From assembly GCA_002104935.1 (NCBI GenBank), contig MCGT01000006.1, forward strand, positions 496,001 through 560,000: a stretch of 64,000 nucleotides of DNA. The letters are read 5' to 3'. The DNA comes from Hesseltinella vesiculosa. Lineage: Eukaryota; Mucoromycota; Mucoromycetes; Mucorales; Cunninghamellaceae. Positions 36,476-51,120 of the stretch are shown one piece after another (position 1 is the first letter of the stretch; the number at the start of each line of letters is the position of its first letter). Below the pieces are notes generated by a model that saw only the letters and a program-made list of their open reading frames with translations, did no database searches and was not told the DNA's origin. Both the position numbers and the translations under genes were made by a program.

Positions 36476-37759
36476 TTAGTTTAGTCTAGACAAAAGCGAA
36501 AGATAAAAGGAGATGTTCAGCCAACTTTTTTTTTTTCAAACAGACGAGTGACCACTTACGATTTGCGGCACCGGCGACTTCCACAATGACAGGGGATTTT
36601 GCTGTCTTCTAACGGAAATTTGTAGTCATAACACAGCTCTTCGCCGACTTCGATGTCCCGCTTGGCATACAGGACTATCCTTTTCTGCTTGTCTATACGA
36701 ATGATACGGGTGCCACAATTGGGCTAAAACAAAGAGGGGAAGTAGGGTGAGATTTGGGCGGGCAGATTTTCCTTCGCCTACCGAGCAGCTGTGGTTCACA
36801 TAGCGGGCGATGTTGCCTTGACGCGTGGCATCAATGACCATGTCATCATCGACCCGGAAGAGGTAGCTGCTGCCGACGCCGTCATGCTCGTATATCTCTT
36901 CGCGTTGGTTGGCGACTTGCTGGCGGATTTTCTGACCTAGGTATTCAATGATGAACTCGTGGGCGCGGATGGGTTCCATGGCAAACAGGCCCCAAGCGTG
37001 GATGGGCGACTTGGCGAACATCAGCCGCTTGGGTTGCTGGCACAGCCGTTGGTATCGGACACCTTCTGGGGTATACTTCCATTGCATGGTGGTCAGTGGT
37101 GCGCTGGGGAGAGGGGCTGCAGTCGTTTTCCTTCGTTTGGACGGCGGTGTGGTGGCAGGGCCGGACGACGCAGAGGGTTGTTTGTCGGCGAGAGCAGTGC
37201 GAATGGGTGTCACGGCTTGTTGTATGGATGGCTGGGGCTCGTCCGCATATGGATAGGGCAGGCGGTAGCCATGAACATTCTTCTTCCTGAGCATCGTGGG
37301 CCGGGTGCGGGCACAATGAACTGCATCTGCGTCTTTCTCGTCGTGGGTGTTGAAGAGGAGTTTGCACATGAAATGCAGATCTTCAGCATCGTCAATGCCA
37401 GCAAACGGGTCGAACAGGCTGCCATGGGCGATCCCGTCTTGCGCAAGATCGTCGTCATCAGAATCGTCCAAAGCCAACAGCTCTTCCAGGGTGAATGTGC
37501 GCTTGACGGTCGGCTCAGGATCCATGTCAGCGGGAGGTGAAGGTGTGTCGTTGATGGCGATTTTGATGGGTAGCTGGCTGTTGGTCGAGCTGGTCTGGGC
37601 ACTGGTGCTACTGCATGTGTCGGGCGATGGAGGCGACAGTGGCGAGTTGATGGCTGGCATAAAGCAGTAGCCGGTAGGATCAAGGATCGCTTTTATGCTC
37701 ATCACATCGGCTGCCCGTTTCCGTGGTATAATATCCGTTTGAGGCGATGGCAACAGCAT
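36476..37759 (-). CDS. Set1-type histone H3K4 methyltransferase, short form
   Basis: Exons 36782-37759, 36560-36723 and a 10-nt coding exon 36476-36485 give 383 aa. The SET domain is close to Set1: [20 protein letters not shown], then [38 protein letters not shown] and [12 protein letters not shown] post-[11 protein letters not shown] follows and the last codons are SLN, like the GTLN/GYLN ends of Set1. The 10-nt last exon is inferred because reading through the donor gives a TAA immediately (CRKS-stop), whereas splicing gives CRKSLN. The N-terminus is acidic and disordered ([13 protein letters not shown]). No RRM or typical n-SET region is visible, and fungal Set1 is usually far longer. It could be a paralogue, or upstream exons may be missing. 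Confidence 0.85.
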
Positions 37760-39217
37760 ATCGTCATGAGAAAGTAACCGAAGAAACACAAGAAAAAAAA
37801 TAAAAAGGGAAACCAAAAAAGAAAAGAATGAAAAAAAAAACCAGCCCCGCCTTTTTTTTTCGCCCTCCTCTTTTCGCCACTTTGGAGCATTCTCTCCTCT
37901 TCTCTTCTCTGCCACGCACATTCAAGTCCAGATGTTGGCCACTGTGGATTATCTAATAACATCGGCATTTGCACTCGCGCAATGAATAGTGTCTATTGGC
38001 CGTCATCTTGGGCGGACAATCGGCAAGATGTGTTACTGCTGTTCACTAGGACATTGGATAATGAACAGCTCGCCACAGACAGAGAGCAATGTCTTGAAGC
38101 AATGGTACCATTGACTTGTTAGCGCTAGTGCCCAAAACGCTTTTGACTACCAAACCAGTGTCAACAATCAAATTTTCATCAAGAAATTATCGCATCCTGT
38201 CAACATCTTGCCATCTCCTTGCAAGATCCATTGAGCGACACTGTCAAGGACTATCATGCTAAGACAACCTTCGCTGCCAGCTTACCCCTCTACCCGTGCT
38301 ACGAAGAACTCCCCAACAAGGTAACAACCTGTCCCACTGCCGCAGTGTGCATTAAGAACAAGGGCAGGCAAGTAAGAGTCGAACCCCAAGATTTTCAGTA
38401 AATGCCTCGTTCCTGATAGTCGACCAGAAAAAAAAAATAGTGCCATCAGCAAGCCCTTGGAAAGATCCCAAAGGACAATTGAATAAACGCCAGCTGCTAT
38501 CCAAACCACAAAAAAAAAAGGAGAGCACGGATGTTTGCGACGAAAGTGATTTTCTGCATCAAGCAGAAAACAGAAGAGGACGGACTCTAAAATGCGTGTT
38601 TTGGCTGGGAACCCGGTCTGCCTGATTTCTGCGTTAATTGCATTGATATAGCAAGCCATGAGCATCTGCTATTGTATTATTATTTTTATTCTATGTGCCA
38701 TTTTATTATTAACTGCTCAAGGAACATATCGGCCAATGAGATGCAAGGGGGAGAGACCGGCGGGGCGCCAAAACCTCGCAAGTGCCCACAGCCGCTTGTA
38801 TCGCTGGGCCCGATTTCTCAAGTGGGTTGCCTTTTTAGGCGATTTCCGACAGCATGATTGACTAATCTCCAGCGTGGGACATTTCCCCCTACGTCTAGTT
38901 TGTGACAAATCCCCTGGCGATGGGAGACTCTCAGAAAACGTCTGTTTTTAACTTGTATTTCTATGCAAACTATAACATTCCCATGCCACAAACTCACCAA
39001 AAATAACTATACCCTGTCCACCATGGTCTCTCTATGGAGGAGGACGACAAGCCAGCAAAGACATGGCCTGCGTCGGTTCCGAAAGAAACAAGAAAATAAA
39101 GTTCTTGAGCCAAAAAAGGCAACGCTTTTTTTTTCTTTCTTCCTTCTTTTTAAAAGTTGCGTCTTTTTTTCTCTCTTGCTCTCTTTTTCTTTTTTATATT
39201 ATTGTCTTATCCTTACC
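37760..39217. other. Divergent intergenic region
   Basis: About 1.45 kb between the Set1-like and ALDH starts. Short frames at 38219-38401 and 38282-38665 have no family signal. Pyrimidine tracts at 39120-39200 precede the ALDH gene. Confidence 0.45.
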
Positions 39218-41198
39218 ATGTCTGATATTCAAACTGTCAAGTTGTCCAACGGCAAGACTGCCCAAGGTAAGTCAAGAGACATGAGGAAAAACACGGCTGG
39301 TGTTGGACATGGCCTCCATTAACACCCATCTTTGTAGCCCACACCTACTTGTTCTACAACAACAAGTTCGTTCCTGGCAATGGTCCTTTGATTGAAACCA
39401 TCAATCCCACCACCGAAGAAGTTATCTGCAAAGTGCACAGCGCTGATGCCAAGGATGTTGACGCCGCTGTCGACGCTGCCCACAATGCTTTCCACTCTGA
39501 ATGGAAAAAGGTGGCTGCTGCTCAACGTGGCCGTTACCTCAACAAGCTTGCTGACTTGATGGAACGTGACATTGATGAATTGGCGACGCTTGAAGCCTTG
39601 GACAATGGCAAGTCCTTTGTGGTTGCCCGTGACGTCGATATTACCGACTCCATTGCTTGTTTCAGGTAAAAAAAAAAAAAAAGGAAAAAAAAAAGGCTTG
39701 TCCGAAGGGGGCCACTCACGACCCTGCACAGATACTTTGCTGGCTGGGCTGACAAGATCACCGGTCAAACGATGGAAACCACCTATGACAAGATGTGCTA
39801 CACCCGTCTGGAACCCATTGGCGTGGTGGGTGCCATCACTCCTTGGAACTACTCTGTCATGATGCCTGTAAGTTGGAGAAAAAAAAATCGAATAGGACCC
39901 ATGCCAAACAGGGGCTCACCGTATTTTTTCTTTCATGCAGGTTTGGAAGTTGGCCCCTGCTCTGGCTGCTGGTAACACAAGTAAGTATAAAAAAAATAGG
40001 TCGTCTATTTTCTGGCCATCGTAAATTAAGGTTTGTGTTCTCATAGTCGTGCTCAAGACCAGTGAAGTCACTCCTCTCGCCATGTTGAAGCTGTGTGAAC
40101 TGGTTGTGGAAGCCGGTTTCCCTGCTGTAAGTCTCTTTTCATTGTGACCCACAGCTGAGACTCATACATTTATTAGGGTGTTGTCAACGTCATCACTGGC
40201 TATGGTCAAATCACTGGTGCTGCCTTGACTGGCCACCCCAAGGTGCACAAGATGGCTTTCACTGGTTCTACTCAAAGTGGCCGTCTCATCATGGACAGCT
40301 CTGCCAAGTCCAACTTGAAGAAGGTGCAACTGGAACTGGGCGGCAAGTCTGCTCAAATTGTGTGTGCTGATGCCGATTTGAAGAACGCTGCTTTCTGGTA
40401 ATTTCAGAAAAAAAAAACAGGACGCCACAGTCAACTCATCCGCTCTTACACTATCCAGGGCTTGCGGTGGTATCTTCAACAACCATGGTCAAAGCTGTAA
40501 CGCTGGCTCGCGTATTTTGGTGCACGAATCCGTGCATGACGAATTCGTCAAGCTGTTCATCGAAGAAGCCAAGAAGATCAAGGTCGGTGATCCTTTTGAT
40601 CCCGAAGTCACCCAAGGCCCTCAAATCAACGTGGCCCAATTCAACAAGATCCTGGAATACATCGACATCGGCACCAAGGAAGGTGCCAAGGTCGCCTTTG
40701 GTGGCAAGCGCATCGGTAGCAAGGGCTACTTTATCGAACCCACCGTCTTCATCAACTGCCACAACCAAATGCGTGTCATGCGCGAAGAAATCTTCGGTCC
40801 TGTTGTCTGCATCGGCACTTTCAAGACCGTCGACGAAGCCATCGAGATTGCTAACGACTCTGACTATGGTTTGGCTGGTGGTGTCTACACAAGCAACATT
40901 GATACTGGTATCATTGTAAGTCGATAGATTAGAAAAAAGACAACTGCTGACAATCACTCTTTCAAAAGGTCTCCAACGCTTTGGAAGCCGGTACCATCTG
41001 GGTCAACTCTTATGACATCTTTGATCAATCCACACCTTTCGGGTAAGTGCACCCATAGAGACCAAAACATGAACCTAACCCCTCGTTTTCTACAGTGGTT
41101 ACAAGCAATCTGGTTTCGGCAAGGAATTGGGTTTGGACTCGCTTCGTGAGTACAGCCACATCAAGTCTGTCAAGATCCAATTGGTGTCTCGCCTTTAA
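39218..41198 (+). CDS. NAD(P)-dependent aldehyde dehydrogenase
   Basis: Nine exons join in phase: 39218-39266, 39338-39665, 39732-39867, 39941-39980, 40047-40126, 40177-40397, 40459-40915, 40969-41042 and 41096-41198 (495 aa, the usual ALDH length). Motifs: [20 protein letters not shown] with the oxyanion Asn, ALAAGNTIVLKTSE for the cofactor ribose, [11 protein letters not shown], the general base in [11 protein letters not shown], and the nucleophile in [13 protein letters not shown]. The end has EIFGPVVCI, the [19 protein letters not shown] block and GFGKELG. It oxidises aldehydes to acids; the substrate cannot be stated, although the sequence is of the cytosolic/mitochondrial ALDH1/2 type. 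There is no clear presequence. Confidence 0.95.
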
Positions 41199-42126
41199 AA
41201 ACCATCAACCTTTCCCCCTTTTTCAACCGAACACGCCTGTATCATAGCCTTCAAATAAAAATAAAAAAAAACATCGCTGCTTTTGTATGGAAATGTCTTG
41301 AGCGCCAGCCTGGCATGCTTACACCCCTTGCCGCTCGACTGAAAAAACCAATCCAGCCCTCAATTTTCCAGAGGTAAAAAGATGAAAATAGGCAAGGCTA
41401 GGTCGTTCATGTCATATGAAGGCCGCGAGGCAGTAACCTCAACCATCTCTTTCTTTCACCTGAAAGTGGCCCAGTCCCAGAGCACGCATCAATAATAATA
41501 AAAAAAAACATGGTGGCACGTTGCTATGAAGAAAAAGCAAGGTGCTGAATCACTATGGAAAATTTGAGAAGAAAAAAACAGCGCAACCAATCAAATAGCC
41601 AGCTGCATATGCGCTACTAAGCGCACTAACATGATCCTCTTGCAGAAAAGAATTTGTCGCATCTTTCTGCAAAGCATGTTATTTTTACCACCTTGGATTT
41701 ATAGACCAAACATGGTAAGGCATATGGAGAGGCATGCGTGAAATAGACAGAATGGTATGGATAGTCGCAATTTCTTCAATCTGGAGCATTTTTGTTTAAC
41801 TGAGGATGGCTCTGAGGCCTGTTTTTTTTTCGTGGTTTGGTTTGCCAGGCAGTGTTAAGTTTTTATTTAAGAAGCACAGTAAAATGAGCAATAGAGATAG
41901 GCAAAGAGTGTTACCTTTATCATTGATGGTACGCTACTTCATTTTATATTTCAAAAAGAAAGGTACGTAGTAAAAAAAAGGGCTAAGGATGTGATTGGCG
42001 GTCATTCTCGCTGGCATTGGCAAAGGTTTGATCATCCGCAACACGCGATTCTTTTTTTTTTTTTGTTTGTTTATCTAGGCTCTTCTATCTTTTTCTTTAT
42101 TTCTGCTCATTTTCTATCTTTCCCTG
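41199..42126. other. Intergenic region upstream of the Fanzor gene
   Basis: AT-rich, with no gene. If the Fanzor lies in a transposon, its left end should be here, but I could not identify a terminal inverted repeat or target duplication by eye. Confidence 0.4.
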
Positions 42127-45100
42127 ATGCAATCGCTTCTTCAATCCGTCTACGTAACTCTGTGCCACATCCCTGAAGAAGATTTCCGCCGGGCGTTGCC
42201 TGATCAGTTGGGCCAAGCTTGGATGACCACCGAACAATTCTACACTGTTTGGTCACAAGCAAAAGTCTATCGTGAAAGTAAGTCATCCATCACTTCCATC
42301 ATGTCTTTTTCTTTACCCATCTTCGTAGGACGGGAAACTGGGCCCACGCCACAACGACGTGCCCAACAACAGGAACCAAACGATCGCGCCGAGGGGAGAC
42401 GGCTGCGCCAAGAAGATGAGCGAAATCCTGATGCTGTGGGACCGTGTGCCACATGCGGCCAAATGGGACACTGTTCGTCTGCCAGCCGCCTCTGTCCTTA
42501 CCATCGCATGAACAAGAAGGATTACATCAACGAAATGATGCCAGGTGGTGAGCGCTACACGATAAAAAAAAGCTTTGAAGATGCCGTCCGGCAACCGTTC
42601 AAGCTCGCTTTGAAGCGCAACATAGAATCGACCAGCGCCTGCAACAAGAACATCCTTTTCCGCCTCCAATTGTTTATCAACCATTTCGCTCTCACTCACC
42701 CGTCTGACTTTAAAAGCATCATGATCAGCCAGAACGGTCTCCTGTCCATCTCGCAGCTCATCTATCCCCGCAACCCGCGGCGACCGGGGATCACCAACGC
42801 TCACATCCTGCGAAGCCTTCCTCCCACCTTTCTGCCTCACTGGAACCAGTTTGTCCGCGACCACCCAAACATCGTGTACAACCCCAACGACCACCACGGC
42901 ATGGATCCGCTCGACAATGCAGCCTTACTCATTCCTGCTGATGACCGCAGCCTTCACTTCCATCACCCGCATAAATTCTATGGAGGTACTTTTGGGCCAT
43001 GTTTGTCAACGCTTGCCACCGCTTACTCCAATTGCTTGGTGATCGACTTTGAGAAAAAGGTCAAGAAGTTTATTCGATTCTCCTTTGCCATCACGGATGT
43101 CCAAGTAAGTTTTTTAAAAGGGCGGTACCAAAAAAGGGAATGTGTTCTGACTTTTTTTTGTCTCTTTCAGATCCCTCATATTGACCAGCAGGTGGATGAC
43201 ATCTACACAAACTTCGCAGAAAGACCCTCCCACCCTCAATCAGGGGTCACATCTGGATCGGCCACAAACAGTGTCCCTGGCGTGTCTGCCGAAGAAGCGG
43301 CGATTGCCGATGTGAAGGCGAAAACACTGGCCTTGAAACCCCACTACGTTGGTAAATTGACATCAACAACTCTGTCCCGAAATCCTAGCAGTGCCTTGCT
43401 TGTCTACACCAACATCAACAAGCAATACGAGCAGTACAAGTCCCAGCCCAATGCCAACCCCAAAAAATGCCCAAAGCTTACCATCCTTCCTGAGCCCCAC
43501 TTTGGACGCCGATTCATCCCCATCCTACCCGACACGATCAAATACCTAGCCGAATGCGATGCTCCTGATCACGCTGTGGCTACCGCTGGTGGTGAAGCAA
43601 GCAACAATGATATGGCTGGTGAACCCGACGCCGCATTCATCCGTGCCTTGCCCATGTTTTTCAAGGTGTTCCACATGGAGAAGTTCAACTTTGGTGGCCC
43701 TGGGTACGGGAGGTAAGTTTCGCAGACACCAAAAAAAAAAAAAAAAAGAACAACTTCCAACTTTTTTCTTCTTCTTCTCACCTAGTGTCCAGGACATGCT
43801 TGAGGGTATACTATACAACCGTCCACTGTTTGCTTGCCACATTTGGTGTGATGGCGTTTCGTGCTGCTTTGAATTTATTCGTTTGCCAACCACGCATCGC
43901 CCAACGATGAAGCTGCCCAGCCTGGACCACTGGGATACCGAACTGGTCGATCGCTTCGACATGGTCGCCGTCGATCCAGGCCGCCGTGCCATCGTCACCG
44001 GAAGCTATGGCACACCTTATCCACTTTCTATGCTCCATGAAACCCGGGATGACGAAGGCTCTGCAGGTGAAGGTGAACCCGATAACGATAATGACGAAGA
44101 ACAAATGGCTATCGACACCCCATGTCCTATTCGTGCTGCTCAGCCTGCACATCAACATCAGGACTTTGACAACGCCACTGGCAGCACTGATATGGAACAA
44201 GGAAATCTCTCTATGCCTATGATTGACGATGCCGATCCTACCACCCCGATCCCCCAGTCTCACCATCTGCCTTACCGAGTCATCAAGGTATCAGCAAAGG
44301 AATATCGCTCGCAATGTGGAGCGCAGCGACGAATTCAACAATTGGAACGACGCAAGGTTTCCACGACATACTCTTTCCGAGGTCAGCAATTACCGTTCCA
44401 TCAGCTGGAGGCTGCCATCCCTTCCCACCGAAGCACCAGCGCCTCCGAATATGCCATCCGAATCCAATACCTGCTCGATCGTCTCCCGCTCTTCTTCGAC
44501 TTTTACGGCCTTCAGCATTCCATCGACCGCTTCAATGCTTACAGAGGGCGTCAGCGGGGCGTGGCATACGTTGCCAGTGTTCTTGCTGGCCTGTCCAAGA
44601 AGTATGTCAAGTCCCAGCGCAATGTGCGCGGCCACCGTAAGCGTACCCACCGCAATCGGCGCAAGCGTCAGAAGAAAGCTCGGAAGAAAAATGCCTTCAA
44701 GATCAGCAAGGCCAAGAAGGCGATGGTGGAACACCTTGCAGCGCTGGATGTTTCTATAATGAAGACTGAAAATCTGCTAAAATGCTCTGCTGGCTCGATG
44801 CTACCTGGGACAACAGATTTATGGGAAGCAACATTACATACCATGCGCACCCAACGAGACCTGGACCGTGACCACCGCATTGATCTGATCAATGAAATGG
44901 AAGAAAAGAGGCAAGTCGCCGTGGTATTCAGGAGGTCCAGGTGGGCTTATTTTTCCATTGTAGACCCGCACCGCAAATGAAGCCAAGCACACGTCTTCGT
45001 CACGGTGTGACAAAGTTTCCCAGCGAAAGAGTTCCATTAATACTCTTTGGTGATGGCCTCAAGGGTCGGAAGGTCGCCGCCCCGCTCAAAAAGCAGCTTC

Positions 45101-45472
45101 CTGGCTCGTCTTCCCTGGTGTTTGACCAATTGGAAAACCGACAACGTCAGGGCAAGCTTGCTGTTATCTCACTGAATGAGTTCAAAACAAGCAAGGTGGG
45201 TAAAAAAAAAAAAGCATGTCAGCAACGAGGTGGCTCATTCTTTTTCTTCAATGCAGCTCTGCTCTATCTGCCATGGCCCAACCAAAAACCCAGTCGTGAA
45301 TGGTGGCAAGATTTATGGACTTCTGCGCTGCAGCTCCTGTGCGGTCATCTTTGACCGGGATGCCATGGCGGCCTGCAATATGGTGTCCATTGGTCAACAC
45401 TTTTTCCAACACAAGCAACGCCCCCTGGCCTTTTGCCCACGCCGACGCCCTCCAACCTCTCCTACCGATTAG
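42127..45472 (+). CDS. Fanzor: eukaryotic TnpB-like RNA-guided DNA endonuclease
   Basis: Six exons join in phase to 1013 aa: 42127-42277, 42329-43104, 43171-43712, 43786-44910, 44964-45195 and 45257-45472. The fourth intron is GC-AG (AG|GCAAGT). An N-terminal CATCGQMGHCSSASRLCPYH could bind zinc. RuvC-I is FDMVAVDPGRRAIVTG (D553). A long basic helical insert (RKRTHRNRRKRQKKARKK) precedes RuvC-II, where FGDGLKGRK leads to VISLNEFKTSK with the shifted Glu (E937) typical of Fanzors. A zinc finger CSIC...RCSSC (C944, C947, C967, C970) leads to RuvC-III DRDAMAACNM (D975/D977), with Met in place of the usual first Asn. Fanzors cut DNA guided by an RNA usually encoded at the gene's 3' end. No transposase gene flanks it. 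The frame is intact, so it may be active. Confidence 0.9.
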
Positions 45473-45797
45473 TTTTCATATTTATTCACCAAAGCAACCC
45501 TGCAAAAGGGGTTACCGTCTGCTCTGGCAAGAACGTGTTTAATGCTTTTATCCGGTAACTGGTGCTTTTAGCCAACACTTAACACACGTTCTGATTGGTA
45601 ACGGAGTTTTCTTTTTTTCCATAGTGGAATGGTAGACTTGCATGATCAAGCTCTATGATTGGCCGAACCCCGGATTTGGAGGTGACTGCTGAAGCATGGG
45701 CCCAAAAAAAAAAAAGTAGGCTGGCAAAAGAATCGCCTCGCTTTTTTTTTTTTTTTCTTCTTCACCTCCCCACTCTTTTTTTTTTTTTAATTTCACA
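45473..45797. other. Fanzor 3' flank with interleaved inverted repeats
   Basis: Just after the Fanzor stop, GTTACCG (45511-45517) can pair with CGGTAAC (45553-45559), and GAACGTGT (45531-45538) with ACACGTTC (45584-45591). The order A-B-A'-B' is pseudoknot-like. A further GGTAACGG follows near 45597-45604. This is where a guide RNA would be expected. Farther right are T-runs and A-runs leading into the SDH4 gene. Confidence 0.35.
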
Positions 45798-46499
45798 ATG
45801 TCATTTCGTCTTGCTACACCTACTCTTCGCTCGACGGCTCGCTTGATGGCCCTTCGTCAACAACCCATGGGTTTGGTCAAGATCCATTCCTGTAAGCCCA
45901 TCCAGAAACGATTTTAAAAAAAGGCGTACAAGTGAAAAAAGAGACGGCCTGTTTATTTATTTCATCCGTTTTTACTAGCTGTGCCTGCCAAGGTCAATGC
46001 CGTGGTGACTCCTCCTGCCGATCGCGTCCAAGGTTCTTACCATTGGGATGCTGAACGTGTCCTGTCGGTTGCTTTGGTTCCCCTTGTTGGCTCGCAACTT
46101 GCTTTGGGCGCCTCCCCCGTCACCGACACTCTTCTCGGCGTTGTCTTGCCTCTTCATATCCATATCGGTAATGATAAGAGATAAAAAAAAATATCAAGGT
46201 TAGTCCATGAATCGTAAGACTTATTTTTTTTTTTTTCATCGACGCTAGGTTTCGATTCTTGTATTACTGGTAATGCGAATAAAAAGACGAGGGCACGCAA
46301 CAATGGCTGCTGACGTTTTTATTATTATTATTATTATTCTCTTGTAGATTACTTTGGTCCTCGCAAGGCTCCTGTGTTGAACAAGGTGATGAACGCTGCC
46401 TTGTATGGCTCTACTGCTGCCACTTTGTTCGCCTGCTACCACTTCAATACCAACGACATCGGCCTCACCGAATTCATTGCTCGTGTCTGGACCGCCTAG
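45798..46499 (+). CDS. SDH4: Succinate dehydrogenase membrane subunit (CybS, Sdh4/SDHD)
   Basis: Exons 45798-45891, 45979-46167, 46249-46269 and 46348-46499 give 151 aa. The N-terminus is a basic, Ser/Thr-rich mitochondrial presequence (MSFRLATPTLRSTARLMALR). The CybS core follows: GSYHWDAERVLSVALVPLVG, a second hydrophobic helix ending VLPLHIHIG with the heme-ligand-region histidines, and GFDSCITDYFGPRKAP. A third helix ends in FNTNDIGLTEFIARVW, the conserved C-terminus. It anchors complex II in the inner membrane and helps form the ubiquinone site. The third exon is only 21 nt and encodes most of GFDSCIT; skipping it would remove the conserved loop. Confidence 0.93.
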
Positions 46500-46653
46500 A
46501 CATCTCTTGTGCTTTTAAAATAAACCATTCGAGGTACAGAATGATATCACGAAAACAAAAATATCTATCAATAAGAAACATTTATTTCTTCAAAAAGAAG
46601 GAGGGTATGGCAAAAGAGGGATGCAATTGGGTGTACAAAGAAGAAGGGTCTTT

Positions 46654-47766
46654 CTAAAGGGGTTGGTGGGTGGTTTGCATGGCCAGCGTGGATGGTGAAG
46701 AAGAAGCAGGGGCTTCAAGTGTGGCAGGGGCATCTTTACTGGCTTCACTCTGCCCATCGTCATCATCGGCTTCATGGAGACTGGTGTTGCAGCTGGCCAG
46801 AGGGGTGACTTTGTTGGAGAGCAGTCCGCGCTTGATAAGGAAGGTCTCGACCATGGCTTCGGCACCAAAACGGCCGGCAACGCCGAGCAACAATTCCCAG
46901 GTGTGAGCTTGCTGGTCGGTGAGGGTCGAGGCCAACTGATGCTTCAGGTCGCCGAGGGATTGTTTGGTGCGGATCTCCTGCTCTTTGAGGAACGAGATGT
47001 TGAGTTCCTTGGCGGTCATGCCCCGGTTCAAATTTCTTCTCAAGTAAGCGTCATAGTCGCGCACGATGCGGGTGATCAAGTCCGACGTCGAGATGCCGTC
47101 GGTGCGGCGGGTGGGCAAGAACCTGCCCTGGGCCTTGACAAACGCATACACATCATTGGTTTCCTTACCGCCATATGGCTCGGCGTCATGTGCCACATAG
47201 TCAATCTGATGCCTGTCTAGAAACTCTTGGCTGACCACCCACGGCGCATCAGGGATGACCTCGTCCACCCACTTGCTAAGGCACGCGATAAAAGGGAGGA
47301 TGTCAGTCGATGGAAAGGTTGGTAAGGAATGGGATTACATGTGTCGAAGGGCTTCGTAGCGTTCTACATCGGTCATGACCGTCTTGCCTTTAAGTTTGTG
47401 GGTGTCGACGTCGTTGCAGACTGCAAACAAGAAACGAGATGAGCCCCGAAGCTGTTGTTTTATTATTTTTTTGGACGTACCACCAACCATCAGGTAAACA
47501 TTTTCAAACGCTTTCTTGGCTTGCTCCAGCGCCTTGGCATGACCAAAGTGACACAAATCAAAGATACCATCACAATAAATCCGGACAGGACGATCAGTTG
47601 GTGGCTACACGTGAAAGTCCAAAAAAAAAAAAAAGTGAGCACCTGCCAAGATGTCAAAAAGGAACTGCCAACAATAACTTACAGCATTGATTTTGAAATC
47701 GTAGCCTTGGTCCAAGATAGCCTGTTGCAAGGAAGCTTGAATGTGTGTTTCGACAGTGGTTGGCAT
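46654..47766 (-). CDS. PCT1: Choline-phosphate cytidylyltransferase
   Basis: Exons 47683-47766, 47481-47604, 47339-47420 and 46654-47275 give 303 aa. The catalytic core starts at [20 protein letters not shown] with the CTP-binding HxGH motif. It continues with [20 protein letters not shown], then [20 protein letters not shown] and [18 protein letters not shown], and ends with the signature [16 protein letters not shown] helical stretch (about 190-240) could be the membrane-sensing region, and a Ser/Pro-rich tail follows. The enzyme makes CDP-choline, the rate-limiting step of phosphatidylcholine synthesis. The choline rather than ethanolamine type is supported by a single catalytic domain and the RHIKWVDEV motif. 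The N-terminus is short compared with yeast Pct1. Confidence 0.93.
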
Positions 47767-48278
47767 GATAACCTAGTAACAATTGAAAAGACGTCAAGTT
47801 CACCCCTGAACGCTCTTTTGCATCTGCATGAGGCGTCCTTGGTTGCCTCTTCCCTCGTTGTTCCATAGCCTTACTCACCAGAAAATGACCCGAGAACAAT
47901 AAAGAGAAGTGACGAGGAGTAAAAAAAAAAAAAGCCAAGAAGGAAAAGAAGACGAAGAAAAAAAAAACCACCCATTTATTGAAAAAGGGCCCTTTTTCGT
48001 CACAGACCGAAAAAAAGGAAATTTCCAGGTTTCTTCCCCAAAAACAGGCATGCCCTGTTTCTTTTGCTCATGATGTTGGTTAAGGCACTTGACCAGCCAG
48101 CAAAAGTAAAACACAAAAAAAAAACAGATCGGGGCAATGTCTTGCATGAAAATCCAACTGATGTTTATTTCATTTTAGGTCACCTGTCGCCCCCCTCTTT
48201 CTTTACGCCAATTCCCAGCCGTTGAAAAAGGGTGACATGCAGTTTTTTAGTTCATTAAGAGTTGGAGAAAAAAAAAGT
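47767..48278. other. Intergenic region
   Basis: Spacer upstream of the cytidylyltransferase on the minus strand. A-runs occur at 47921-47933 and 48114-48123. No gene is seen. Confidence 0.5.
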
Positions 48279-48752
48279 TTAGCATTTGACTCTAAGCTTG
48301 TGTGACCTGAGGAGGGGCGGAGAAGTACGGGTGGCCAGGTCCGTTTTTCGTCGGTTGGTCAAGGCGCCGACAATGCGCCGGCTGAGGGAGGGCTTGGGCA
48401 TAGGCACGGGCAAGGGCATGCTATGGATGGATGACAGAGGAGGGTGGTGACTCGGCGAAAAGCTGCTGCCCGAGGAACAGGTAGAAGACGACGACGATGA
48501 ATAGCGTCGGAATAAAAACGACGAGGATGTGGGGGAGGAGGGTGGCAATGGGCGGGATTTGGTGTTCATGCGTTTGGTCCAGCCTGCCAGTTTGGAATTC
48601 AAATCCATAAACCGTTGGAACCCTCGGTCATACGCAGCAATGCGATCATAAATGTTCCAGGCTAGGCGTGGGCCAGCCTTGATCTTGGGTGCAGCCGAGG
48701 ACCTGTATCTTGTTATGAATCGAGTGGATCGGGACACTGTAGGGAACACCAT
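48279..48752 (-). CDS. Small basic Ser/Pro-rich protein, hypothetical
   Basis: A 157-residue open frame with an ATG at 48750-48752 and a TAA at 48279-48281. The first ~60 residues look folded and basic (TRFITRYRSSAAPKIKAGPR, then IYDRIAAYDRGFQRFMDL). The rest is Ser-rich (RRYSSSSSSTCSSGSS) with Pro-rich and Arg/Lys-rich patches. No domain is recognised. The basic start could target mitochondria. A real gene is suggested by the length and by the compositional shift from folded to disordered. Confidence 0.5.
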   Translation of the reverse strand: MVFPTVSRSTRFITRYRSSAAPKIKAGPRLAWNIYDRIAAYDRGFQRFMDLNSKLAGWTKRMNTKSRPLPPSSPTSSSFLFRRYSSSSSSTCSSGSSFSPSHHPPLSSIHSMPLPVPMPKPSLSRRIVGALTNRRKTDLATRTSPPLLRSHKLRVKC

Positions 48753-49251
48753 CGTTGAACAGCTGGAAGAGATCTATGGGAAGCAAAGAGGCCAAAAAAG
48801 AAAAAAGATCAAACTTATATCTTTTTTTGGCCTGCAGATGCCATGAGGATGATAGGCAAATTCACAAAAAAAAAAAAAAAAAAAAAAAAAAAGATCTGTG
48901 CATGGCAAAATGCAGGCCTACTTGACGACCTGTTCCTCCTCTTCTGAACCATGCTCACCTTCAGAGCTCCTTTTTTCTTTACATCGATCGAAATCAGCCT
49001 CTTTCATCTCGGACATCTGTATTTCATTTGCACCTCCATCTGTAGACGCGCACAAACCAAAAAAAAAGCACGGAACACAAGGGTCGAAAAGGTAAAAGAG
49101 GCGTGCACACGCAGATTTCATGGCAGGGAACAATGGGATAAAGGGGAATACAAGAGTTGCAAAAGGATGCTAAAATAGCGTAAAAAGGAGCACCATTAGG
49201 AGTTGTACAGTACAAGTGGCAAGGGGGGAAAAGGGAGAGGGAATGGCAGTT
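48753..49251. other. Intergenic region with a 28-nt poly-A run
   Basis: Contains a run of about 28 A at 48864-48892. No supportable gene is seen on either strand. Confidence 0.5.
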
Positions 49252-49764
49252 TCATGAAGAGGATGCAGGCGAGTGGTCAGTTTGAGGGGCGCCATACTTT
49301 TCCTTGGCTCGCTTTGCCCGTCGTGCCTTCTGTTTGGCGATCTTGGCAGCTTTCTTATTGTTTTTGCTTTGTGCACCATTCACCAAATCGTCTAGCTTTT
49401 CCTTGAGCAGCTTTCTTGCAATCCCTCGGTTCTCTTGTAACGAGCGTGTTTGCTGACACTTGAAAAACAGAAAAGAAAAAAGTGAGCCGAAGCAAAAGGT
49501 CATTTCTTCTGTTACCTGCACACGAATCCCGGTTGGTATATGGCGCAGATCAACACAGCTTGAGCGTTTGTTGATACATTGACCACCTGGGCCTGAGCCC
49601 TTGACAAACGTCTCAACGAGATCTTCGGCCTGCAGCACAATCTTCTTTCGCTCAGGCTTGGTGGAAAAGAGCTGCAGCAAGGGACGCACGGCAGGCATGG
49701 CTGTGTGCCAAGAGGCGGTCAATGGTCGCTGCTGGTATAGAAATGGCCGTAGGTGCTGGAACAT
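49252..49764 (-). CDS. Mitochondrial GGQ release-factor-like ribosome rescue protein
   Basis: Exons 49516-49764 and 49252-49458 give 151 aa. A Ser/Arg-containing presequence of ~35 residues precedes the RF-1 domain: VLQAEDLVETFVKGSGPGGQ with the catalytic GGQ, then CINKRSSCVDLRHIPTGIRV and CQQTRSLQENRGIARKLLKE. A strongly basic tail (NNKKAAKIAKQKARRAKRAK) would contact the ribosome. It lacks codon-recognition domains, so it belongs to the mtRF-R/C12orf65 (yeast Rso55) or ICT1 group, which free stalled mitochondrial ribosomes by peptidyl-tRNA hydrolysis. The KxGGQ context and short length favour the C12orf65/Rso55 side. It shares a 108-bp divergent promoter with Rtt109. Confidence 0.88.
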   Translation of the reverse strand: MFQHLRPFLYQQRPLTASWHTAMPAVRPLLQLFSTKPERKKIVLQAEDLVETFVKGSGPGGQCINKRSSCVDLRHIPTGIRVQVTEEMTFCFGSLFSFLFFKCQQTRSLQENRGIARKLLKEKLDDLVNGAQSKNNKKAAKIAKQKARRAKRAKEKYGAPQTDHSPASSS

Positions 49765-49872
49765 AAAGTGGATGTTGCAGAATAGGTGTTCAAATCAATG
49801 TGTTGCAATGAAGCAAGGAAAAGAGAAAATAAAGAAGCCCGCCAGGTTTTTTTATTTTTATTTTCTTCCCCA

Positions 49873-51120
49873 ATGTTGCTGCCAACGTTGAAAGCCAAGA
49901 TCTGCGAACAGTTTGCGACACTTGATCTGTCATACCAGGTGCATGACATTGTCAAGAAAACGATGCCGTGCCCAAGCTTGACGGCGCAGCCGGAAACAAT
50001 GGCCACCTCACTCACCCAACGCTTGATCATGGTGGCGTCCAAAACCAACGAGACCCTGCTGTGCGGCATGGAAATCGATGAATACACGACGATGGACAAG
50101 CAGCAGCCAGCGCAGCATACGGTGTATGTCAGCAAGATCGACACTTCCGGATCCCCATTGAGCCGGGGCGTTGCCAAACGGTTGGTGATCGCCTACTTGA
50201 CCAGCCTTCCGCCCAGCACCAAGATCCATGTTTTTGCGCGTGCACAACCCCAATACTTATTTGCCAAATCAGCTCGCCACCCTGACAAACATGTGCTGTC
50301 AGACCGCCAGCTGGTGCGATGGTGGCATCAAGTCTTGACCAAGGTGCCGGCCCACAAGCGCCATTGGTGTGTGCCGGGCGTCGACGACCCATGGACCGCC
50401 CAGGCCGACGTTGGACTGCCTCGCACCAACGCTTCCTCGACCGCCTGGCATTATGGCCATGCTTATTCTGGCACAGCTTTGGCGCAAGACGTGATTCCTC
50501 GCTTCCCTGACGACGGCAAAGGCCGCTTTCTCAGCAGTTTGGCTGATCCCGACCTGACAGTCGATGACTACTGGGCTCTGCTCGGTTTCAGCGAAGAGTG
50601 TGGCGCTGGTCACCTGGTGGGGATCTTTGTGGTGGAATTGGCCAAGGAAGAAACAAAAAAGGAAGAACCTGCGTCTGCGGCCGAGCCGGCCCGTTGTTTG
50701 GACGAAGACACGTATACCCAAATGTGGAACGACCTGATGCACCAGGATTTCAGTTCAGGCCAAAGCAACCACACCTCCACGCACACTTGGCTCAAGGCCT
50801 GGCACAAGCAGTTCTACTCCTTTGCTGTGAATCCCGATAAACCCGAGACCCTGGACGGCACTGGCAAAATCACCCCCCCGCCAGCCGACCAATCACATGT
50901 GAACACCCTGATGCCTCGATCAGCCAGCACAGCTGTGCATGTGCTTTCTGCCAAGCGACCAACCAAGCCAGATGCCAAGGTGTTGCAACCTTCTGACCCC
51001 CGTGCCCAGGATGCCACCCACCTACTGACCCCAAAACGCAAATCACCCACCAAAGACCCTGCCATGGCCAATGCCGCCCTGCACGTGCTGACGCCCAAAC
51101 GCAAAAGAACCACCCAGTGA
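49873..51120 (+). CDS. RTT109: Rtt109-type histone H3K56 acetyltransferase
   Basis: A single exon of 415 aa. The ATG at 49873 gives MLLPTLKAKICEQFATLDLS, a normal Rtt109 start. Family blocks: HTVYVSKIDTSG, AKRLVIAYLTSLPPSTKIHV, FARAQPQYLFAKSARHPDKH, VLSDRQLVRWWHQVL and later SSLADPDLTVDDYWALLGFS followed by EECGAGHLVGIFVVEL. These form the p300-like acetyl-CoA fold. Rtt109 acetylates H3K56 (and H3 tail lysines) on new histones with Asf1 or Vps75. The C-terminal ~110 residues are disordered and carry three copies of an H-V/L-L-S/T-x-K-R motif (HVLSAKR, HLLTPKRK, HVLTPKRK). That basic tail probably contacts a chaperone or DNA, which is inference. Confidence 0.9.
   Translation: MLLPTLKAKICEQFATLDLSYQVHDIVKKTMPCPSLTAQPETMATSLTQRLIMVASKTNETLLCGMEIDEYTTMDKQQPAQHTVYVSKIDTSGSPLSRGVAKRLVIAYLTSLPPSTKIHVFARAQPQYLFAKSARHPDKHVLSDRQLVRWWHQVLTKVPAHKRHWCVPGVDDPWTAQADVGLPRTNASSTAWHYGHAYSGTALAQDVIPRFPDDGKGRFLSSLADPDLTVDDYWALLGFSEECGAGHLVGIFVVELAKEETKKEEPASAAEPARCLDEDTYTQMWNDLMHQDFSSGQSNHTSTHTWLKAWHKQFYSFAVNPDKPETLDGTGKITPPPADQSHVNTLMPRSASTAVHVLSAKRPTKPDAKVLQPSDPRAQDATHLLTPKRKSPTKDPAMANAALHVLTPKRKRTTQ

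Follow-up and report, generated by a model that had tools for sequence, protein, structure and literature searches.

In the mould Hesseltinella vesiculosa we find what is probably a Fanzor1-type RNA-guided DNA nuclease, carried on a multicopy, recently mobile DNA element. No transposase is recognisable in the element, which was therefore probably moved in trans. The gene is real, probably functional and of Fanzor1 type, and RNA-guided cutting is attributed to the protein from its family membership. Positions (Table 1) refer to the window, the whole stretch of 64,000 nucleotides that was analysed. A literature search on either term returned, among its best matches, no paper combining Hesseltinella vesiculosa and Fanzor.

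Table 1 Features of the Fanzor element in the window
Feature	Position	Strand	Basis or remark
Left GAAT	41547..41550		probable short target duplication; preceded by T, the Y of YGA
Whole Fanzor element	41551..45626	+	4076 bp (4.08 kb), ends CACTATGG...CCATAGTG
Left terminal inverted repeat CACTATGGAAAA	41551..41562	+	inner terminus TGGAAAA begins at 41556
Exon 1	42127..42277	+	exon model and comparison of copies
Exon 2	42329..43104	+	carries the N-terminal cluster C90xxC93-H98-C99-C106-H109
Exon 3	43171..43712	+	exon model and comparison of copies
Exon 4	43786..44910	+	CDG (TDG-like) motif, RuvC-I D553 in DPGRR, acidic insert, conserved basic region
Intron 4	44911..44963	+	GC-AG, 53 nt; donor in 21/21 copies; matches the P0001 junction
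Exon 5	44964..45195	+	alternative RuvC-II Glu (E937) close to the exon end
Exon 6	45257..45472	+	finger C944xxC947-x19-C967xxC970 and D975-R-D977
Candidate omega-RNA scaffold	45489..45626	+	two helical regions common to a diverged sister family
Right terminal inverted repeat TTTTCCATAGTG	45615..45626	+	pattern match at C56:541615-541626, minus strand; copy alignments
Right GAAT	45627..45630		follows the right end
Predicted guide: flank 3' of GA, about 20 nt	45629..45648	+	TnpB/Fanzor architecture (PMC10711439, PMC10432273), with copy boundaries

Gene model and predicted protein

The six-exon model spans positions 42127-45472 on the forward strand and translates into 1013 aa with no internal stop, reproducing exactly the length, D553 and E937 proposed in an earlier sequence-only reading of this DNA. 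RuvC-I is represented by D553 within VAVDPGRR, which is kept in 20 of the 21 copies compared, the remaining copy having a gap. The shifted RuvC-II glutamate (E937-FKTSKL-C944) lies six residues ahead of the zinc finger and is also kept in 20/21; the remaining copy, another with an unbroken frame, has Asp at this position (E937D). The C4 finger (C944xxC947-x19-C967xxC970-x4-DRD), the RuvC-III DRD and the Met of the RuvC-III motif (Met979), all of which that reading had pointed out, are present in 21/21 copies. The extra N-terminal CxxC/H cluster that it described is likewise conserved (C90, C93, H98, C99 and C106 in 21/21 copies, H109 in 20/21).

The proposed Fanzor identity held up. The protein carries the signature described for Fanzors by Yoon et al. 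2023 (PMC10711439), which combines DPG at RuvC-I with a Glu placed six residues ahead of the zinc finger, and the profile search suggested by the earlier reading returned PF07282 as the sole Pfam family above cut-off on the spliced protein (32.9 bits, cut-off 26.3). The same source gives a TDG motif in the WED domain as a marker of Fanzor1 (PMC10711439); the motif reads CDG here, and the four sister rows spanning this position have SDG, TNG, TDG and TDG. The protein was correctly described as long, since most Fanzor1 proteins have 600-700 aa according to PMC11423790. A structure model of the exon 4 part only had a pLDDT of 50.7 and was uninformative as to a RuvC fold.

The large basic insert noted earlier is partly upheld. 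The basic stretch is real, with 23 K/R in 60 residues from residue 759, but it is not a special insert, because its core is conserved across the six aligned Fanzor families of the genome. The family-specific insert is instead acidic (residues 575-650, 19 D/E and 2 K/R); this protein and the nearest sister family have it, and it is reduced or absent in the other four aligned rows. Owing to the acidic insert and an extended middle region, DPG and Glu are 381 residues apart, which exceeds the 2013 range of D-X(125,275)-[TS][TS], although [TS][TS] is present as T940 S941. We treat this range as descriptive of the sequences then known and not as defining, the required residues being present. PpFz1 of Parasitella parasitica, also in the Mucorales, is a Fanzor1 with an extra domain inside RuvC, the cyclophilin-binding FRI of about 100 aa (PMC11423790). 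The insert here differs in being acidic, and no solved-structure match to E 10 was named PpFz1, whose chain may lie outside the database.

Solved-structure profile matches were weak and covered the PF07282 region (TranC 5e-5, mimivirus L79 5e-4, SpuFz1 E 0.97), with a few unrelated chance matches. The protein shares a TNB zinc finger and RuvC-III region with L79 and with TnpB of IS607/IS200/IS605, but it differs from TnpB in that NCBIfam TnpB models score 14-17 bits, far under their cut-offs of 100-425, and no TnpA is recognised in the element. A single-sequence protein search found nothing, and a six-family profile search of proteins gave two matches, both from Hesseltinella vesiculosa; with no homologue found outside the species, these searches do not tie the protein directly by sequence to any Fanzor that has been tested.

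Within the genome, D553, E937 and DPGRR occur in 6/6 Fanzor families when their C-terminal parts are aligned, the sister rows being predicted exon joins, some of them incomplete. The nearest sister family has 51% and 41% identity to this protein over two stretches of exon 4. Counted as pieces, PF07282 has at least 46 matching places genome-wide and the exon-2 region at least 83, some of the latter beside other Fanzor families. Several PF07282 places have identical scores, which suggests further recent multicopy families, and the Fanzor-like places C78:707246, C85:280714, C2:122112 and others match PF07282 better, up to 48.1 bits.

The intron model is supported by comparison of copies rather than by RNA. 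The GC donor of intron 4 is conserved in 21/21 copies, and a visual comparison places the exon 4/exon 5 join at the matching residue in P0001, a sister-family protein annotated in Hesseltinella vesiculosa. With the support of both, a GT-AG version of this intron (donor 44941, giving a 23-nt intron and 1023 aa) was dropped. The donor of intron 3 alternates between GT and GC among copies, intron 1 of L029 is GC, and 2/105 donors examined are AT (L031 intron 2 and L040 intron 1). The introns also show length changes between the 21 copies, mostly in A-runs. Intron-containing Fanzors were reportedly described in 2023. As early as 2013, PMC3627910 catalogued ten families of Fanzor1 for Mucor circinelloides and referred, in its methods, to elements of this type whose genes have multiple exons.

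Boundaries, copies and maintenance of the element

The earlier coordinates, 42127-45472, are correct for the coding sequence, but the mobile unit is larger, extending over 41551-45626. In BLAST comparisons of window positions 37001-51000 with the fetched copies, 20/20 alignments begin at 41542-41590 and end at 45627-45632. The flanks differ, with no alignment of more than 60 nt beyond the element in this interval for the 20 copies. In the window, the element is flanked by genes for aldehyde dehydrogenase and for CybS, the small cytochrome b subunit of succinate dehydrogenase (40382-40924 and 45984-46496). With exon 4 as query, 87 places were found in the organism's own 27.05-Mb genome; 20 of these, the window copy included, are near full length with 89-100% identity and three further ones are split in pieces, giving about 23 near-complete copies. 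The set compared throughout consists of the window copy and 20 of the 22 others (L021-L040), while the copies on C46 and C23 were read at their ends only.

No transposase or recombinase was recognised in the element by Pfam searches of the spliced protein and ten other open frames, the latter giving no match above cut-off (one chance match, E 0.047). Fanzor1 proteins belong to eukaryotic non-IS607 transposons, and here we find common ends in 21 copies, inverted repeats and no recognised recombinase; the IS607-type element with a serine recombinase that typifies Fanzor2 does not correspond to an element with inverted repeats in which no recombinase was recognised. A search for other elements ending in CACTATGGAAAA gave 38 places, 27 of them assigned to near-complete copies and one to a fragment; the remaining 10 are no excess over the 22 of a reversed-pattern control.

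A close parallel in organisation is SPu-1 of Spizellomyces punctatus, a multicopy element bounded by terminal inverted repeats and encoding only a Fanzor, SpuFz1, with 17 full-length copies of which nine are intact (PMC3627910). SpuFz1 itself differs in having 633 aa from a single ORF on an element of about 2.1 kb with 33-bp repeats and putative TA duplications (PMC3627910), and SPu-1 also has 134 Fanzor-less 'ghost' loci (PMC10432273). In contrast, the protein here has 1013 aa from six exons, and the 4.08-kb element has 12-bp repeats and lies at YGA sites.

The earlier description of the gene as intact, with no stop or frame break, is true of the window copy and of 12/21 copies examined, 11 of these 12 having GT or GC donors throughout. 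A decaying or neutrally drifting repeat, inactive now, in which the open frame of the window copy is mere luck, would accommodate the 9/21 copies that are broken and the 17 of 40 right-end matches that are shorter or more diverged fragments. This is improbable, however, given that four unbroken copies (L022, L023, L024 and L026) are 97.3-97.9% identical to the window copy over 4 kb, and that mean dN/dS is 0.27, with dN lower than dS for each of the 210 copy pairs, these pairs being non-independent and including broken copies. Read from these ratios, the Fanzor gene has evolved under purifying selection.

Region 1-300 of the protein is conserved as well (dN/dS 0.23), with matches beside other Fanzor families. 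Together with the element having no other Pfam family above cut-off in the spliced protein and ten other frames, this could be taken to mean that the Fanzor-derived protein is now mainly transposition machinery, its N-terminal CxxC/H region binding the ends and moving the element while RNA guidance has become secondary or lost. We consider that unlikely, because nuclease and finger residues persist in 20 or 21 of 21 copies and D553 and E937 in 6/6 aligned families, the right-end structure described below may be common to two families, and three IS elements tested for it could transpose without TnpB (PMC3627910).

Three side observations concern the history of the copies. The right-end 163 bp has 40 genome matches and the left-end 163 bp has 28, decayed fragments keeping the right end more often; 9/10 right-end fragments with some upstream DNA read extend into Fanzor coding sequence, and the seven shorter ones outside this count may include Fanzor-less ghosts. 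The 21 copies differ by about 3-4% in the 5' part (41600-43104) and by about 6-7% in exons 3-6, as if the two halves of the element had separate histories, through gene conversion or mosaic subfamilies. At the left junction of L033, 21 nt between flank and left end are identical to the element's own 41563-41583, resembling templated end-joining filler.

The insertion motif and how the element may have moved

GA directly follows the right end in 22/23 near-complete copies, L033 being one base off, and in 12/15 older fragments with a readable right end as judged by eye, two more being unreadable. On the left, GA lies exactly 9 nt before TGGAAAA in 11/17 copies that keep this inner terminus, a count that leaves out L022, L029, L030, L031, L040 and the C23 copy, all without it. 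At control offsets of 3-24 other than 9, GA occurs in 0-2 of 16, and the base preceding the left GA is a pyrimidine in 11/11. This register-exact count replaces a loose-window count of YGA (16/22 versus 16/44 in two control windows, p 0.009). From these flanks, the insertion sites carry a Y-GA motif. TGCTGAA is common to four of the 11 left sites, which may therefore not count as independent evidence. The left flanks in question (window copy, L026, L039 and the C46 copy) otherwise differ, and the shared bases could stem from a preferred target or from a left end that was originally longer. L025 and L035 read TC before CACTATGG, so that the GA on the right might instead belong to the element as its final bases.

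Target duplications are less regular. An exact 9-bp duplication is present in L032 and L038 (2/17 copies), and in the window copy, L024 and L026 four bases match, followed by CACTA. L022 and L029, both with a damaged left end, carry 12-base repeats. In another six copies GA flanks the element left and right but the remaining bases differ, and six of 17 have no GA at -9. Such discordant left sites may result from exchange of flanks between copies or from error-prone joining. A copy's own left and right flanks share at least 4 bases in 8/21 cases, compared to 82/420 swapped pairs; 10-12 bases are shared in 4/21 own pairs, and none of the 420 swapped pairs exceeds 7. Short duplications alone are weak evidence, and the 4-bp match is not clearly above the swapped-flank control. 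An earlier idea of a precise right end and a sloppy left end with variable duplications is weakened by the fixed 9-nt spacing.

That spacing, with the exact 9-bp duplications in L032 and L038 and the 12-base repeats at the damaged left ends, is also what a Mutator-like (MULE) non-autonomous element might show, moved by a MuDR transposase in trans with 9-bp duplications and with the Fanzor as a passenger. Several Fanzor1 DNA elements of Mucorales (MCi-2, MCi-4, ROr-4 and PBl-3) have 9-bp duplications of MuDR type or duplications of 11-12 bp, according to PMC3627910. Nevertheless, the terminal repeats here are short (12 bp) with CACTA ends, and 15/17 copies have no matching 9-bp pair. We regard the passenger reading as a real contender, though the less probable one, and its MuDR transposase is compatible with the main explanation, a Fanzor1-type nuclease on an element moved in trans. 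MCi-2 is similar also in its variable 5' ends, but is described as having no recognisable terminal repeats and ATAATT duplications (PMC3627910), whereas the present element has CACTATGG ends and YGA sites; the two are set apart by description, not by sequence.

On the evidence of the flanks, YGA is the likely target motif of the nuclease. The nearest sister family ends in CCCTAGTG followed by CA in the two copies read, and match lengths suggest the same ending in further copies of that family. We tentatively propose, at less than even odds, a more general correspondence in which the insertion motif and the nuclease target motif are the same. The element would sit at Y-GA sites, YGA would be read as the TAM, and the last base of the element, G, would turn the junction into GGA and spare it. 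Each Fanzor family in the genome would then have its own dinucleotide, GA here and CA in one sister family. If this is true, the Fanzors of this genome form a natural series whose TAMs differ and can be predicted.

A candidate guide RNA and its predicted use

Scanning the window with Rfam and ARAGORN gave no matches. For an alignment of the element's final 138 nt with the nearest sister family, RNAalifold gave 22 pairs, two of them changed on both sides. In this two-family alignment 96.7% of 152 cells are paired, compared to 34-56% in slid controls, and the covariation score was reached by 8/500 shuffles, but the seven sequences used here, in effect two lineages, are also those from which the structure was built. 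Two of five measures were no better than shuffles (255/500 and 423/500), and the first hairpin alone was not significant (80/500). The right end of the sister family alone folds better than all but 3/200 shuffles. For the right end of the window copy, folding was no better than in shuffles (z -1.13, 22/200), pieces of it and of another subfamily gave z of -0.56 to 0.78, and the 21 sequences of the family to which the window copy belongs showed little consensus structure, none of it significant. With these mixed controls, a structured RNA at the right end is supported as a candidate guide-RNA scaffold. Fanzor1 guide RNAs are described as having three stems, with the terminal repeats and the duplication taking part (PMC10711439), a description with which the candidate RNA appears compatible.

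Putting these features together, we infer a role for YGA as target motif, and for cleavage in retention of the element. A transcript running through the right end would yield an omega-RNA with the element's final ~140 nt as scaffold and the flanking target DNA as guide. The ribonucleoprotein would recognise the empty insertion site, 5'-YGA followed by a match to the guide, and cut it. Repair from a chromosome still carrying the element would restore it, such that the element is kept and its copies may rise. At the element's own right junction Y is replaced by G (TAGTG followed by GA), which would spare it from cutting.

Fanzors are programmable eukaryotic nucleases related to those of CRISPR type. 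The kind of element described here is already known; what appears unusually clear in this case is the comparative evidence for its ends and insertion motif, together with a candidate guide RNA. With about 23 near-complete, recently spread copies and several sister families in one mould genome, all three could be proposed by comparison alone. Direct predictions follow, with YGA as the TAM, a scaffold at 45489-45626 and a guide starting at 45629, and the genome would offer a natural panel of long, intron-bearing Fanzors.
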